Assembly: GCA_012960105.1 (NCBI GenBank)
Contig: DUBV01000110.1
Location: 1 to 53,177 of the forward strand
Reading direction: 5' to 3'
DNA from: Thiotrichaceae bacterium
GTDB lineage: Bacteria; Pseudomonadota; Gammaproteobacteria; Eutrophobiales; Eutrophobiaceae
DNA length: 53,177 bases
Shown here: piece by piece, positions 48,724 to 53,177 of the stretch
How positions within the stretch are numbered: the first letter of the stretch is position 1
Layout of the letters: each line of letters opens with the position of its first letter
The notes under the pieces: model-generated
What the model was told of the DNA's origin: nothing
What the model saw: the letters and a program-made list of their open reading frames with translations, nothing else
The model's database searches: none
Position numbers and translations under genes: made by a program

Positions 48724-48797
48724 TGGGGATTCGTCTAATGGTAGGACTACGGATTCTGATTCCGTCAGTAGAGGTTCGAGTCCTCTATCCCCAGCCA
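48724..48797 (+). tRNA. tRNA-Gln (anticodon CTG)
   Basis: The 74-nt gene folds fully: acceptor tggggat/atcccca, anticodon stem cggat/tccg region with loop ttCTGat, T arm with gaggttcgagtcctc, and an encoded CCA. It follows the ribosomal protein operon. A second copy of its 3' half lies at 49961-50002, suggesting use as an integration site. Confidence 0.93.
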
Positions 48798-49071
48798 ATA
48801 GAATCAACTACTTAGATAAATTTCCTTTTTATTTCCCTCTGAACATCTACTTATCTGGTAGTTATTCTGGCAGTTAGGTTCAATGTACTAGGCTGTAATT
48901 TTAGTAGTTAGATCGAAGGCATTATTCACCGCAATCAGCCAATATATGCCATATAAAACAAACTTATGGCGTTGGCTAAATTGCTATTTTTCTAATCCCT
49001 TTTAAATAATGGGCTGGGCGATAACTTCGCTTAGAACAGCGGTGACGCAATCAGTAGCTTTGGTTATTTGG

Positions 49072-49374
49072 CTATTTGGCTATCACTAGCGATAATTCTT
49101 TGTACTTCTGTTTCATTTGCAAGTTTTCAAATGGCACGATTGAAGGGACTTGCAGGTTCATTACTGCGCTAAAGATATCTTTACTGTTTGATAGCATTGC
49201 ATAAAGATCTGCGCTCACCATAACAGTATCATAGGTATTCTTTGCTAATCTTAAATCCTTCTTTGCAACAGACTGAGCATCTTTTACTCGGACATTATAA
49301 TTACCTTCGAGAAGGACATGACCTGCTATTACTTTATATAACCAATAACTTAGCCTATTCAGAAAACAATTTTT
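49072..49374 (-). pseudogene. Decayed open frame, unknown
   Basis: The minus strand is open for 100 codons from after a TGA (49377-49375) to a TAG at 49074-49072. The translation looks like a real protein (GHVLLEGNYNVRVKDAQSVA and KDIFSAVMNLQVPSIVPF) but no ATG lies near the 5' end. The only in-frame ATG candidates leave about 48 codons. I recognise no family. It is probably the 3' remnant of a longer gene carried by the island. Confidence 0.35.
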
Positions 49375-49498
49375 TCAGGGGTTAAATAGCGTTAAATGTA
49401 GTCCTTTGCCCTCACCCACACGCTCAGAAAATATCACAGATAAATAATAAAAATAGTCTACACTTTTTTGAAGGGGTTAATTATTAAGGGGAGATATC

Positions 49499-49933
49499 AT
49501 GTTAATAAGAATCATATCCATTTCTGTACTACTACTTTTTACTGTATCTATAAGTGCCGAAGAATATTTAGGTAATTATAGCGCAAATCCATACAGTTCA
49601 AATTCCACTTCGAACCCATATGGAGCTGGCAGCTCATACGGTAGCAATAGTATTAACAATTCGTATGGTTCATACGGAAGTCCGTACAGTAATAAATCAG
49701 CAACAAACCCCTATGCTACCAATGCTCCTAAACTATACGATAGCCAAGGTAATTACAGGGGAAGACTTAGTGCTAATCCTTACGACCCTGACTCGACTTC
49801 AAATCCGTACGGCAGATATGGAAGTAAATATTCAGCTGATAGTGTTAATAATCCCTATGGCGCAGGAAGCAGATACAATACCAATAGTCCAAACAACCCG
49901 TATGGACAAGGTTTAAGAATTTACGGTCAATAA
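49499..49933 (+). CDS. Secreted Asn-Pro-Tyr repeat protein
   Basis: The 144-residue protein has a signal peptide (about 1-20, ending ISA before EEYLGN). The rest is low-complexity with repeats around the tripeptide NPY, often SxNPYGxGSxYxxNSxNNPYG. Blocks SANPYSSNSTSNPYG and SANPYDPDSTSNPYG are near copies flanking a central KLYDSQGNYRGRLSANPY. No Cys, no membrane segment and no enzyme motif is present. The ribosome site aggggag lies 6-7 bp upstream. I recall similar NPYG-repeat proteins of unknown function in gammaproteobacteria. Such a composition suits a surface-exposed or matrix protein, but this is conjecture. Confidence 0.7.
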   Translation: MLIRIISISVLLLFTVSISAEEYLGNYSANPYSSNSTSNPYGAGSSYGSNSINNSYGSYGSPYSNKSATNPYATNAPKLYDSQGNYRGRLSANPYDPDSTSNPYGRYGSKYSADSVNNPYGAGSRYNTNSPNNPYGQGLRIYGQ

Positions 49934-49960
49934 TAAGATACAAAAGAAAGAAAGGCTACT

Positions 49961-50002
49961 CTGACTCCATCAGTAGAGGTTCGAATCCTCTATCCCCAGC
50001 CA
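49961..50002 (+). pseudogene. tRNA-Gln 3' fragment (attachment-site-like)
   Basis: The segment starting ctgactccatcag and ending ctatccccagcca repeats tRNA-Gln positions 48756-48797 with three base changes and includes the CCA end. The 5' half of the tRNA is absent, so no functional tRNA is made. Confidence 0.85.
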
Positions 50003-50030
50003 GTCTTTTAACCTGAAATCCTGAAATTCT

Positions 50031-50085
50031 GGTTCGGTGACTGTTAATCACTAGGTCGGCAGTTCGAGCCTGTCCCGGGGAGCCA
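50031..50085 (+). pseudogene. tRNA-Asn (GTT) 3' fragment
   Basis: The anticodon arm ggtga-ctGTTaa-tcact, T arm ggcag-ttcgagc-ctgtc and 3' end cccggggagcca fit tRNA-Asn. The sequence upstream (50003-50030) cannot form the D arm or the 5' acceptor strand, so the gene is truncated at the 5' side. Confidence 0.75.
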
Positions 50086-50095
50086 TATCAAATGA

Positions 50096-50128
50096 AAAGC
50101 CTGCATGAGAATGTGGGCTTTTTTTTTG
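50096..50128 (+). terminator. Terminator after the tRNA fragments
   Basis: agcctgcat and atgtgggct pair (one G-U set) around a gaga loop, followed by nine or so T. It probably belonged to the original tRNA-Asn transcript. Confidence 0.75.
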
Positions 50129-50269
50129 GATGAGAGCCAACAAACCAAAAATATGAAAGGCTTTGATTTCAGCCTCTCCATATCTATTCCTAGTATTGGC
50201 ACCTGGATATTAATAGAACATAAATAAGATAAATCTTCTTATTAATATTAAATCTTAGATTCACATAAT

Positions 50270-51323
50270 AAGTGCAATTTTTTTAAAGTGAGACGGCCAG
50301 TTGTTATAGTTGGCAGTTTACTCGCTAAAGGAAATCGCCAATGCATTATAAACAACTGACCGAAGTGGAACGATACCAGATTTACATTATGAAGAAAGCA
50401 GGACATAAGCAAGAATCAATAGCGACGTCCTTAGGCAGGAATGCCTCTACAATTAGTCGAGAACTACGCCGTAATACAGGAAGACGAGGTTATCGACCGG
50501 GTCAAGCACAACGATTAACCGCTAATCGACGTCAAGGTGCATATAAGAAGTGCAAAGTAACGGCAACCGTTCGTTTCTGGATTGAGAAATTGTTAAGACA
50601 GGAGTTGAGTCCACAGCAAATCGTTGATTATCTAATACGTCATAAGCGATTGTCGCTGCACCATGAGACGGTGTATCGCCTAGTTTATGCAAACAAAGCA
50701 CGTGGTGGGTCGTTATACCGACATCTTCGTATCGTTTCTAAGCTCTATCGTAAACGTTATGGGCATTATGATCGACGAGGTAAAATCCCAAATAGAATCA
50801 GTATTGAACAGCGCCCTAAAGTGGTTGACCGACGTCAACGTATCGGTGATTGGGAAGGTGACACGGTGATAGGAAAAAACAGAAAAAGTGCTTTATTAAC
50901 ATTGGTGGAACGTAAAACGCTTTATACTGTGATGGTTCGTTTAACCGGCAAACGTGCCGACTTATTGGCCGAGGCGATGGTGAAAGTGATGACACCGATG
51001 AAGCAGCGATTCCACACACTGACATTAGATAATGGCTTGGAGTTTGCGCACCATGAGCAGATAGCAAAACAACTCAAGGTAAATATTTACTTTGCCCATC
51101 CCTATTCGTCATGGGAACGTGGCATCAATGAAAATACAAATGGATTAATTCGCCAGTATTTTCCTAAGGGAACAGATTTTAATCAAGTGACTGATGACGA
51201 CATAACGCATGTAATGGAACGATTGAATAATCGACCAAGGGAAACACGCGGATGTCGTTCGCCGAATGAATTATTTTTGGGGCAGCGTGTTGACTTACTC
51301 GCTGCATAATTTACATTGCACTT
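50270..51323 (+). mobile_element. IS30-family insertion sequence, complete
   Basis: The 1054-bp element is bounded by perfect 9-bp inverted ends aagtgcaat (50270-50278) and attgcactt (51315-51323). The identity decays further inward, as in IS30-type imperfect ends. The trinucleotide aat stands on both sides (50267-50269 and 51324-51326) and may be the target duplication. It contains one transposase gene. Confidence 0.8.
50341..51309 (+). CDS. IS30-family transposase
   Basis: The 322-residue protein begins with the IS30 helix-turn-helix (YKQLTEVERYQIYIMKKAGH, then IATSLGRNASTISRELRRN). The catalytic triad is Asp174 (GDWEGDTVIGK), Asp230 (TLDNGLEF) and Glu264 (GINENTNGLIRQYFPKGTDF), with the family end LNNRPRETRGCRSPNELF. 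It is full-length with no disruption, so it is probably active. Confidence 0.96.
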   Translation: MHYKQLTEVERYQIYIMKKAGHKQESIATSLGRNASTISRELRRNTGRRGYRPGQAQRLTANRRQGAYKKCKVTATVRFWIEKLLRQELSPQQIVDYLIRHKRLSLHHETVYRLVYANKARGGSLYRHLRIVSKLYRKRYGHYDRRGKIPNRISIEQRPKVVDRRQRIGDWEGDTVIGKNRKSALLTLVERKTLYTVMVRLTGKRADLLAEAMVKVMTPMKQRFHTLTLDNGLEFAHHEQIAKQLKVNIYFAHPYSSWERGINENTNGLIRQYFPKGTDFNQVTDDDITHVMERLNNRPRETRGCRSPNELFLGQRVDLLAA

Positions 51324-51359
51324 AATAGGCGAATCCAAGACAATTAATTAGATTGCGTT

Positions 51360-53177
51360 ATGCGTATTAAAAATATACGAGTGTTTATTATTTTGCATGA
51401 TCTTTGTATGTGTTTGATTGCATGGCAACTGTCATGGTGGATTCGTTTTAATTTGGAATCATCATTTTTTAATTGGCAAATTAGTTTCTATGTATTACCA
51501 ATAGTTATATTAGTTCAAGGTTTAGCATTTTGGAAATTTAGATTGTATAAAGGACTTTGGAGATTTGCCAGCTTGCCCGATCTATGGAATATTTTCCGTG
51601 CATCTATCATTGGTGCTCTAAGTATAACGTTGGTTTTATTTATCTCAATTAGATTAGAGGAAATTCCGAGAACGATATTAGTTTTGTATCCTATCCTCTT
51701 AATATTTTTATTAGGTGGTCCGAGGTTAGCGTATCGATTTTGGAAAGATCATTCATTTAAACTTGCTTCTACAGCTATAGGCCAGAAAATACTTATTGTT
51801 GGTGCGGGTTCAGCTGGAGCAATGCTTGTTCGTGAAATGTTGCGAGAAAGGAGTTATAAGATTATTGGCTTTATTGATGATAATCCGAATATTATAAATT
51901 CCGAACTTCATGGTGTTCCTATTGTTGGTAATGTTGATGATATTGCAACAATCAATCAACGCTATGAGATTGATTGTATAGTAATTGCTGTTCCAACAGC
52001 GACAGATGAACAAATGCAAAAAATTGTTGATAATTGTGAATCTATTGGTGTCCTAATACGAACACTACCTAAATTACATGAGATGGTTTCATCAAATGCT
52101 GCGCTTGATGAATTAAGAGATGTGTCTATCGAAGATCTGCTTGGTAGGGAAAAAATTGAATTTAATTGGGATGTTATCCAACAGGGAATAACTAATAAAA
52201 TGATATTAGTTAGCGGCGGTGGCGGTTCAATTGGTTCTGAGTTGTGCCATCAAATTGCTAGATTAAATCCAGCAGGCATCATTATTTATGAGCATAGTGA
52301 GTTTAATCTTTACAATATACAGATGGAAATAAACAAAGCATATCCTAGTGTGCCTTTATATGCAGTGTTGGGAAATATCTGCGATAAAACTCATGTTGAA
52401 CAAACGATGATTAAATACAAGCCAAATATTATTTTTCATGCGGCTGCTTATAAACATGTTCCTTTACTTCAAAATCAATTAAGAATAGCGGCTCAAAATA
52501 ATATTTTTGGAACGAAAAATTTTGCAAAATTGGCAATTAAATATCAATGCGAAAAATTTATTTTTATATCGACGGATAAAGCGGTTAATCCCGCTAATGT
52601 TCTTGGCGCTAGTAAGCGCGTTGCTGAGATGTATTGTTATTTGATGAATCAATGCTCAATGACTAAATTTATCACAGTGCGTTTTGGTAATGTCTTGGGA
52701 TCGGCAGGTAGTGTAGTGCCACTTTTTAGGAAGCAAATAAAATCTGGTGGCCCACTTACAGTGACAGACCCAGAGATAACTCGTTTTTTTATGACAATAA
52801 GAGAAGCGACTCAATTAATACTTCAGGCTAGTGTAATGGGCAATGGTGGAGAAATCTTCGTGTTGGATATGGGGAAGCCCGTTAAAATAAAATATTTGGC
52901 TGAACAGATGATCAAGCTCTCAGGAAGAAAGCTTGATAAAGATATTAAAATTAAATACACGGGTTTAAGACCAGGTGAAAAACTTTATGAAGAGCTATTT
53001 TATGAAAATGAAAGCAGAAAAGAAACTGAACATGCGAAAGTTCTTTTAGCTAATCATCCGGAAATAGATCAGCAGAAACTTGAAAAGCAAATATTAGAAT
53101 TAGAAGGTGCTGTTTCTAATTTTAATGATGAAGAAATAAGTCGGTTGTTTGTAGCGTTAGTTCCTGAAGGAAATTTT
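51360..53177 (+). CDS. Membrane-bound nucleotide-sugar 4,6-dehydratase/epimerase (WbpM/CapD/FlaA1 family), 3' end missing
   Basis: From the ATG at 51360, 606 codons run off the right edge. The N-terminal part has about four membrane segments (residues 1-120). A first nucleotide-binding domain starts at ILIVGAGSAGAMLVREML. The catalytic dehydratase domain has GGGGSIGSELCHQI, HAAAYKHVPLLQ, the STDKAVNPANVLGASKRVAE stretch and RFGNVLGSAGSVVPLF, with the RPGEKLYEELF block near the end. Members make UDP-sugar intermediates for O-antigen, capsule or protein glycans. It starts 37 bp after the IS30 end and probably opens a polysaccharide locus beyond the window. Whether the IS affects its expression is unknown. 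Confidence 0.93.
   Translation, partial: MRIKNIRVFIILHDLCMCLIAWQLSWWIRFNLESSFFNWQISFYVLPIVILVQGLAFWKFRLYKGLWRFASLPDLWNIFRASIIGALSITLVLFISIRLEEIPRTILVLYPILLIFLLGGPRLAYRFWKDHSFKLASTAIGQKILIVGAGSAGAMLVREMLRERSYKIIGFIDDNPNIINSELHGVPIVGNVDDIATINQRYEIDCIVIAVPTATDEQMQKIVDNCESIGVLIRTLPKLHEMVSSNAALDELRDVSIEDLLGREKIEFNWDVIQQGITNKMILVSGGGGSIGSELCHQIARLNPAGIIIYEHSEFNLYNIQMEINKAYPSVPLYAVLGNICDKTHVEQTMIKYKPNIIFHAAAYKHVPLLQNQLRIAAQNNIFGTKNFAKLAIKYQCEKFIFISTDKAVNPANVLGASKRVAEMYCYLMNQCSMTKFITVRFGNVLGSAGSVVPLFRKQIKSGGPLTVTDPEITRFFMTIREATQLILQASVMGNGGEIFVLDMGKPVKIKYLAEQMIKLSGRKLDKDIKIKYTGLRPGEKLYEELFYENESRKETEHAKVLLANHPEIDQQKLEKQILELEGAVSNFNDEEISRLFVALVPEGNF

Follow-up and report, generated by a model that had tools for sequence, protein, structure and literature searches.

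A small integrase-less islet in a tRNA-Gln gene beside rpsI, probably at a site that already carried a tRNA-Asn 3′ half

Islands of the kind catalogued by the Islander scheme (PMC4383910) pair an intact tRNA gene with a displaced 3′ fragment of that gene in the same orientation, and crossover centred on the anticodon defines a recognised class of them (class A); as set out there, only elements with an integrase and 2-200 kb in length qualify, and the known crossover subsites are the anticodon loop, the T loop and the T/acceptor junction. Cis-mobilizable elements (CIMEs) are described as products of decay and tandem accretion that have lost their integration and transfer genes and keep their att sites, the site staying open to further elements (PMC5704250). 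Dehalococcoides carries 15 ssrA islands without integration modules (PMC3146451). In the Methylophilaceae, 3′-end repeats of tRNA-Lys mark the additive islands of fGI-2, which range from 330 bp to 42 kb and from 1 to 63 genes, so that single-gene units are already known (PMC10872708). Tycheposons, as described in the same paper (PMC10872708), bring cargo to tRNA genes by means of a tyrosine recombinase and measure 4-200 kb. Lastly, an Alteromonas CRISPR island at a Met-tRNA gene has a duplicated tRNA 3′ end on its far side, taken as the mark of one integration, and a near-identical strain lacks both the island and the repeat (PMC5217437).

We describe a related locus in a window of 53,177 nucleotides, contig C110 of a Thiotrichaceae genome (2.54 Mb in 116 contigs). 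The window is the whole contig, and the right flank of the locus is therefore seen only up to its end at 53177. We write G000 for the genome under study, G001 and so on for the genomes of relatives, C for a contig and L for a fetched locus; features are collected in Table 1. Very probably, positions 48724-50002 are a small islet that lacks an integrase and lies in the tRNA-Gln gene beside rpsI, at a site that already carried an octamer spacer and the 3′ half of a tRNA-Asn. As in the Islander scheme, an intact tRNA gene is followed by a downstream 3′ fragment in the same orientation, and the start of the fragment at tRNA position 30 is a known crossover subsite of tRNA islands. Unlike Islander islands, the islet has no integrase inside and only 1.2 kb between its repeats; the size and the recombinase of tycheposons are likewise missing. 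Judged by sequence, it resembles CIMEs, since both att sites are kept and integration and transfer genes are absent between them; CIMEs are, however, defined by decay from fuller elements, whereas the islet is known from its present sequence alone. Repeats of CIMEs and of the ssrA islands, as described, come from one target gene, while the end of the islet comes from two tRNAs. fGI-2 uses the last 20 nt of tRNA-Lys as against about 45 nt of tRNA-Gln with a mixed Gln/Asn end, and the Alteromonas island holds several genes, with no mixed tRNA end mentioned in the parts of that paper drawn on here. The openly licensed literature searched yielded no end built from two tRNAs of different kinds. We conclude that an integrase-less islet at a tRNA hotspot is of a known kind, and that the mixed Gln/Asn end is its unusual feature.

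Table 1. Features of the tRNA-Gln locus and its right flank, in window coordinates.
Feature	Position	Strand	Basis
tRNA-Gln(CTG), intact, left attachment site	48724-48797	+	ARAGORN; Rfam tRNA 60.3 bits
Inserted element, left end	48798-48902	+	Homologous to sequence behind tRNA-Gln in G003; score 89
Direct repeat TGGTAGTTA / TGGCAGTTA, putative integrase arm-type sites	48856-48876	+	Read in sequence
Cargo gene, 144-aa NPYG-repeat protein	49499-49933	+	ORF list; 39 related loci; codon-position differences
Displaced tRNA-Gln 3′ half, right attachment site	49958-50002	+	Repeat search, consensus homology
33-nt spacer	50003-50035	+	Octamer repeat CTGAAATY at 50013-50031
tRNA-Asn 3′ half (tRNA positions 27-76)	50036-50085	+	50/50 identity to C115 tRNA-Asn
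Terminator-like hairpin with T run	50094-50127	+	Compared by eye with G009
Presumed IS30-like insertion sequence	50253-51340	+	Transposase 50341-51309; imperfect terminal inverted repeats; HTH_38 and rve domains
Polysaccharide biosynthesis gene	51360-53177	+	Pfam PF02719; open at contig end

ARAGORN calls a single tRNA in the window, the tRNA-Gln(CTG), and an Rfam scan of the window returned only tRNA above its gathering score, with MicC and three other weak matches below theirs. A 43-nt direct repeat links the 3′ end of this gene (48755-48797) to 49960-50002, with 40/43 positions identical (93%) at a spacing of 1,205 nt. The 39/42 repeat reported in an earlier note on this DNA is the same repeat one base shorter, and is real. 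The second copy begins to match the tRNA-Gln consensus at tRNA position 30 (49958). This breakpoint is shared: among the fetched loci, with identical sequences collapsed to one, all 13 distinct partial copies of tRNA-Gln start at tRNA positions 27-32, and clustering within 6 nt arose in none of 200,000 draws of simulated uniform 5′ truncation. Partial tRNA-Asn copies start at positions 27-35 in 8 of 10 cases, the remaining two at 20 and 22, a clustering reached in 15 of 200,000 draws, or 193 of 200,000 when truncation was confined to the detectable range of the method; copies less than 75% identical in the 3′ half were dropped from these counts, which excludes the decayed Asn parts of G001, G011 and contig C17. 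In the acceptor stem of the window tRNA-Gln, positions 48729 and 48788 form an A-T pair, against G-C in the relatives compared, and the derived T recurs in the second copy (48788 and 49993; standard tRNA position 67). We read the 5′ part of the gene as host sequence and its 3′ part as restored by the inserted element; since both copies share the derived T, the halves do not divide cleanly into host and element.

The same arrangement recurs in relatives. A Gln half lies downstream of an intact tRNA-Gln on the same contig, at 0.9-30.9 kb, in at least 8 of 53 genomes of the family, the window's included; same-contig counts are lower bounds, since many assemblies are fragmented. The spans from tRNA-Gln to half are 1.2 kb in the window, 11.6 in G001, 20.6 in G007, 6.6 in G021, 3.7 in G049, 3.9 in G052, 30.9 in G056 and 0.9 in G059. 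In six of the eight (G000, G001, G007, G021, G056, G059) the repeat-bearing tRNA-Gln adjoins rpsI, which bears out the earlier proposal of a hotspot there. In G049 and G052, which belong to one other genus, the tRNA-Gln has no rpsI neighbour, and genes for CofC and an F420-oxidoreductase adjoin it. A search with PF00589 across 12 genomes, including the seven relatives, found an integrase inside two of the seven inserts, those of G007 and G056, both beside rpsI, and no match inside the inserts of G001, G021, G049, G052 and G059. G007, of the same genus as the window, has 20.6 kb between tRNA-Gln and 3′ half, and its integrase, of the arm-binding type, lies some 160 bp from that half; among five proteins searched there were terminase, virion-structural and helicase-loader matches, and two had no match, so the insert is, by predicted content, a prophage. 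The 30.9-kb island of G056, from another genus, holds two integrases; four of its proteins were searched, and the RND, membrane-fusion and cation-efflux domains that they gave mark it as a putative metal-efflux island. These are the intact islands between repeats for which a search in relatives had been suggested. The insert of G049 encodes AbiEi and AbiEii, and that of G001 (11.6 kb; L048 4885-16662) has DrmA, DrmB, DrmMII and NERD-helicase matches.

With its shared breakpoints and the integrase-bearing inserts of G007 and G056, the tRNA-Gln part of the locus is a genuine integration scar, as had been claimed, and integration there by a tyrosine integrase is well supported. A local tandem duplication of the tRNA-Gln 3′ end, produced by replication error or homologous recombination with no integrase taking part, would account for the derived T in both copies. 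We consider it very improbable, given that the same arrangement, with the same 6-nt breakpoint and different contents, occurs in 8 of 53 genomes, two of them with an integrase inside, and that the left end of the islet is homologous to sequence behind tRNA-Gln in another species.

Other tRNA halves were seen away from this site. Gln halves lie about 80 to 175 bp behind an intact tRNA-Glu in G006, which has an Asn half too, and in the genome under study, and one lies 106 bp behind the tmRNA gene of G003 (L044 1265-1570, L103 5784-6180, L167 1604-2115); tRNA-Glu and tmRNA are likely other integration sites. For the gene behind the islands of G003 and G007, the genome under study yields nothing beyond weak and short matches. 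Contig C107 carries three tRNA-Asn 3′ halves in a row (L043 11330-14001, equal to G000:C107:47329-50000); the 18 kb fetched contain no intact tRNA, and the last two halves enclose a single ORF of 116 aa without a Pfam match. Intervals between tRNA halves that hold one ORF (at least 70-80 aa) were found on C107 between two Asn halves, in G009 between tRNA-Asn and a half, and in G059 between tRNA-Gln and a half.

Between the window repeats lies a body of 1.16 kb with one intact gene and no backbone gene of an integrative element. Two ORFs reach 60 aa: the cargo gene with 144 aa and, nested in it in a different frame, one of 98 aa. The statement that no integrase is left was borne out for tyrosine integrases: contig C110 has no PF00589 match, and the nine matches in the genome all lie on other contigs. 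The bodies, by contrast, had been called lost, which is half right, since this one retains an open, conserved gene. One of the integrases elsewhere (C5:1537, on a piece that also carries a tRNA-Leu) is 60% identical to the G056 integrase beside tRNA-Gln, and a helper integrase acting in trans, such as this one, is conceivable.

The 105 nt behind tRNA-Gln are homologous to G003, where the local score of 89 compares with a shuffle maximum of 32 and was reached in 0 of 300 shuffles; no Gln half was found behind this left end on the G003 contig. A left end common to all occupants was considered and dropped, as only G003 was clearly homologous among the 17 sequences compared: G016 was marginal (28 against a shuffle maximum of 27), G007 and a third tRNA half on C17 were weak, their scores being reached by 4 and 8 of 300 shuffles, and those of the other 13 sequences were reached by at least 58 of 300. 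Motifs similar to the direct repeat of the left end, which we regard as putative arm-type sites, follow the tRNA-Gln of G007 and the third tRNA half of C17. Compared by eye, the right end of the islet has no evident similarity to that of G007. No viral contig matched an exact pattern for the Gln half, the Asn half or the unit of octamer and Asn half, and the Gln/octamer/Asn composite was not found in plasmids. Fifteen phage records matched the whole tRNA-Gln weakly, at 60-90% identity, which we take as ordinary tRNA homology.

The cargo protein contains NPYG repeats and, read by eye, begins like a signal peptide; it has no Pfam match. Within the genus the gene occurs in 1 of 12 genomes, the window's own, while a pattern-based search returned 39 related loci from several phyla, 47-75% identical over the best segment. 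Comparison with 12 of these gave differences of 0.28, 0.20 and 0.66 at codon positions 1, 2 and 3; one of the 12, L132, has two stops in the aligned stretch. By this bias the cargo is, or recently was, a working gene, and it was likely acquired by horizontal transfer. The family as a whole (the window gene and L124-L162) is patchy across phyla. The idea that it forms a tRNA-linked cassette everywhere was dropped, a tRNA being present on the fetched piece in 3 of 39 loci (L128, L133, L162). Flanking direct repeats of at least 13 nt surround three of the relatives (L128, L143, L150), and only in L128, from Bradyrhizobium vignae, is the repeat a tRNA 3′ end, a 13-nt copy of that of tRNA-Arg.

Downstream of the islet, a tRNA-Asn fragment had been reported to follow the Gln repeat at once. 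The fragment is there; a spacer of 33 nt with the octamer repeat CTGAAATCCTGAAATTCTG lies between the two. Related spacers occur in composite units of G001, G011 and contig C17 of the genome under study, and before an Asn half in G018. In both G001 and G011 an octamer-type spacer adjoins the intact tRNA-Gln, and a decayed Asn half comes next, no more than a few tens of nt behind the gene. The unit repeats 11.6 kb further on in G001, and it stands on C17 behind the third tRNA half, which we take to resemble tRNA-Phe. Gln half, octamers and Asn half thus occur together at five places in three species. Over its whole length the window unit is 78% identical to that of G011 and 76% and 73% identical to those of G001. 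Of 53 genomes, three gave matches to the octamer pattern (the one under study, G001 and G018), always beside an Asn half or a decayed form of it. The DISARM-like insert of G001 sits between two such units, with no PF00589 match inside.

Joining the window flanks gives the same arrangement as in G001 and G011, and the joined tRNA is still called as tRNA-Gln. Joined flanks scored 159 against 115 for the present sequence in comparison with G011, and 155 against 122 with G001. With four other relatives the two versions scored much the same or the present sequence did better (joined flanks first: G009 131 and 127, G006 129 and 123, G004 108 and 111, G007 113 and 129). With G003 the present sequence scored clearly higher, at 210 against 128, because the 105 nt behind tRNA-Gln are homologous in both species. 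Since the unit stands behind tRNA-Gln in sister species and the joined flanks recreate that arrangement, the Asn half appears to have belonged to the pre-insertion site, and the Gln/octamer/Asn arrangement was probably in place before the Gln islet entered. The earlier reading of two integrations in a row is not supported here: with the unit already behind tRNA-Gln in G001 and G011 and present on C17, it probably predates the islet.

The Asn half itself is 50/50 identical to positions 27-76 of an intact tRNA-Asn elsewhere in the genome (G000:C115:1315-1390), a gene whose presence the earlier note had proposed to check. Its counterparts are decayed, whereas the window copy is undamaged; simple inheritance therefore fits poorly, and a renewal event is needed. 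By eye, the hairpin after it nearly matches, base for base, the one downstream of the intact tRNA-Asn in G009, and the sequence behind this genome's own intact tRNA-Asn differs from it. The genome G018, from outside the genus, carries an Asn half preceded by six octamers and followed by a terminator like that of the window, with 97% identity to the window over 79 nt; this match lies on a 7.7-kb contig of a fragmented genome and could be contamination. There (G018:C337; L104 3160-3264), six tandem CTGAAATC octamers directly precede the Asn half and terminator, and the flanking genes resemble, by eye, those for a histidine kinase and a response regulator.

Could a tRNA-Gln and a tRNA-Asn once have stood side by side, as an ordinary tandem array whose 5′ halves were lost? 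The Asn-like fragments within a few tens of nt of the intact tRNA-Gln in G001 and G011 would fit. A tRNA-Gln lies near rpsI in 23 of 29 relatives, 22 within 1.5 kb and one further off, and none of these has a tRNA-Asn there, some of the loci being cut short by contig ends; moreover, breakpoints cluster at one place, the copies being cut at the anticodon stem and loop and not randomly, and the window Asn half is undamaged. A decayed array, which the earlier note had named as the observation that would overturn its reading, is hardly credible.

A model in which tRNA-Gln and tRNA-Asn each took a site-specific integration here, independently, and both bodies were lost deserves more weight, and we nevertheless consider it unlikely. 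In both fragments the cut falls in the anticodon stem or loop, as with integrases, and the Asn half matches a living tRNA-Asn and is followed by a G009-type terminator, so that real recombination of the tRNA-Asn type probably lies behind it. The polysaccharide gene that follows, beyond the insertion sequence, points the same way. It has two close relatives among 12 genomes of the genus (58-59% identical; three others are weaker, at 33-37%), both on contigs with tRNA-Asn: G001:C1:285879, about 1 kb from the tRNA, and G007:C26:213384, about 47 kb from it; relative to the tRNA, both are oriented the other way round from the window gene. Against this, the rpsI loci of 29 relatives, several of them ending early with their contigs, were scanned and yielded no tRNA-Asn; the Asn half is therefore not evidence for a tRNA-Asn gene at rpsI. 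Furthermore, the occurrence of the unit at five places in three species implies that it travels or is inherited as one. The Asn half looks like an older leftover and not a second insertion into a tRNA gene there; we infer that it is the end of an element of the tRNA-Asn type that came to adjoin tRNA-Gln and was later renewed in this lineage.

The preferred reading, a single integration at a site with the Asn half in place, can be put in steps. The octamer spacer and Asn half would already have stood behind tRNA-Gln when a circular element bearing a copy of the tRNA-Gln 3′ half recombined with the chromosomal gene in the anticodon region. The recombinase would have been a tyrosine integrase, now absent or acting from elsewhere. 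The element's copy would have restored tRNA-Gln and the original 3′ half would have been displaced by 1.2 kb, and what remains of the element would be the left end with its arm-site-like repeats and one intact gene. Past mobility of the islet is suggested by its sequence; the body may equally have shrunk from a larger island by deletion or moved as a one-gene unit.

A broader proposal, which we regard as quite improbable, is that Gln half, CTGAAAT octamers, Asn half and terminator form a double attachment end that is portable from one tRNA locus to another. If so, the end would provide a landing site beside tRNA-Gln for islands of the tRNA-Asn type, here with surface polysaccharide genes; one-gene units would be exchangeable by integrases acting from elsewhere; and the arrays of tRNA halves in the genus behind tRNA-Glu, tmRNA and the third tRNA half would be further members.

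Within this gammaproteobacterial family, elements have landed repeatedly in the tRNA-Gln gene beside rpsI, with a predicted prophage, a putative metal-efflux island and a DISARM-like insert among its occupants, and very small units holding a single intact gene are retained there. An end mixed from Gln and Asn parts offers a concrete case for asking whether attachment sites move between tRNA genes.
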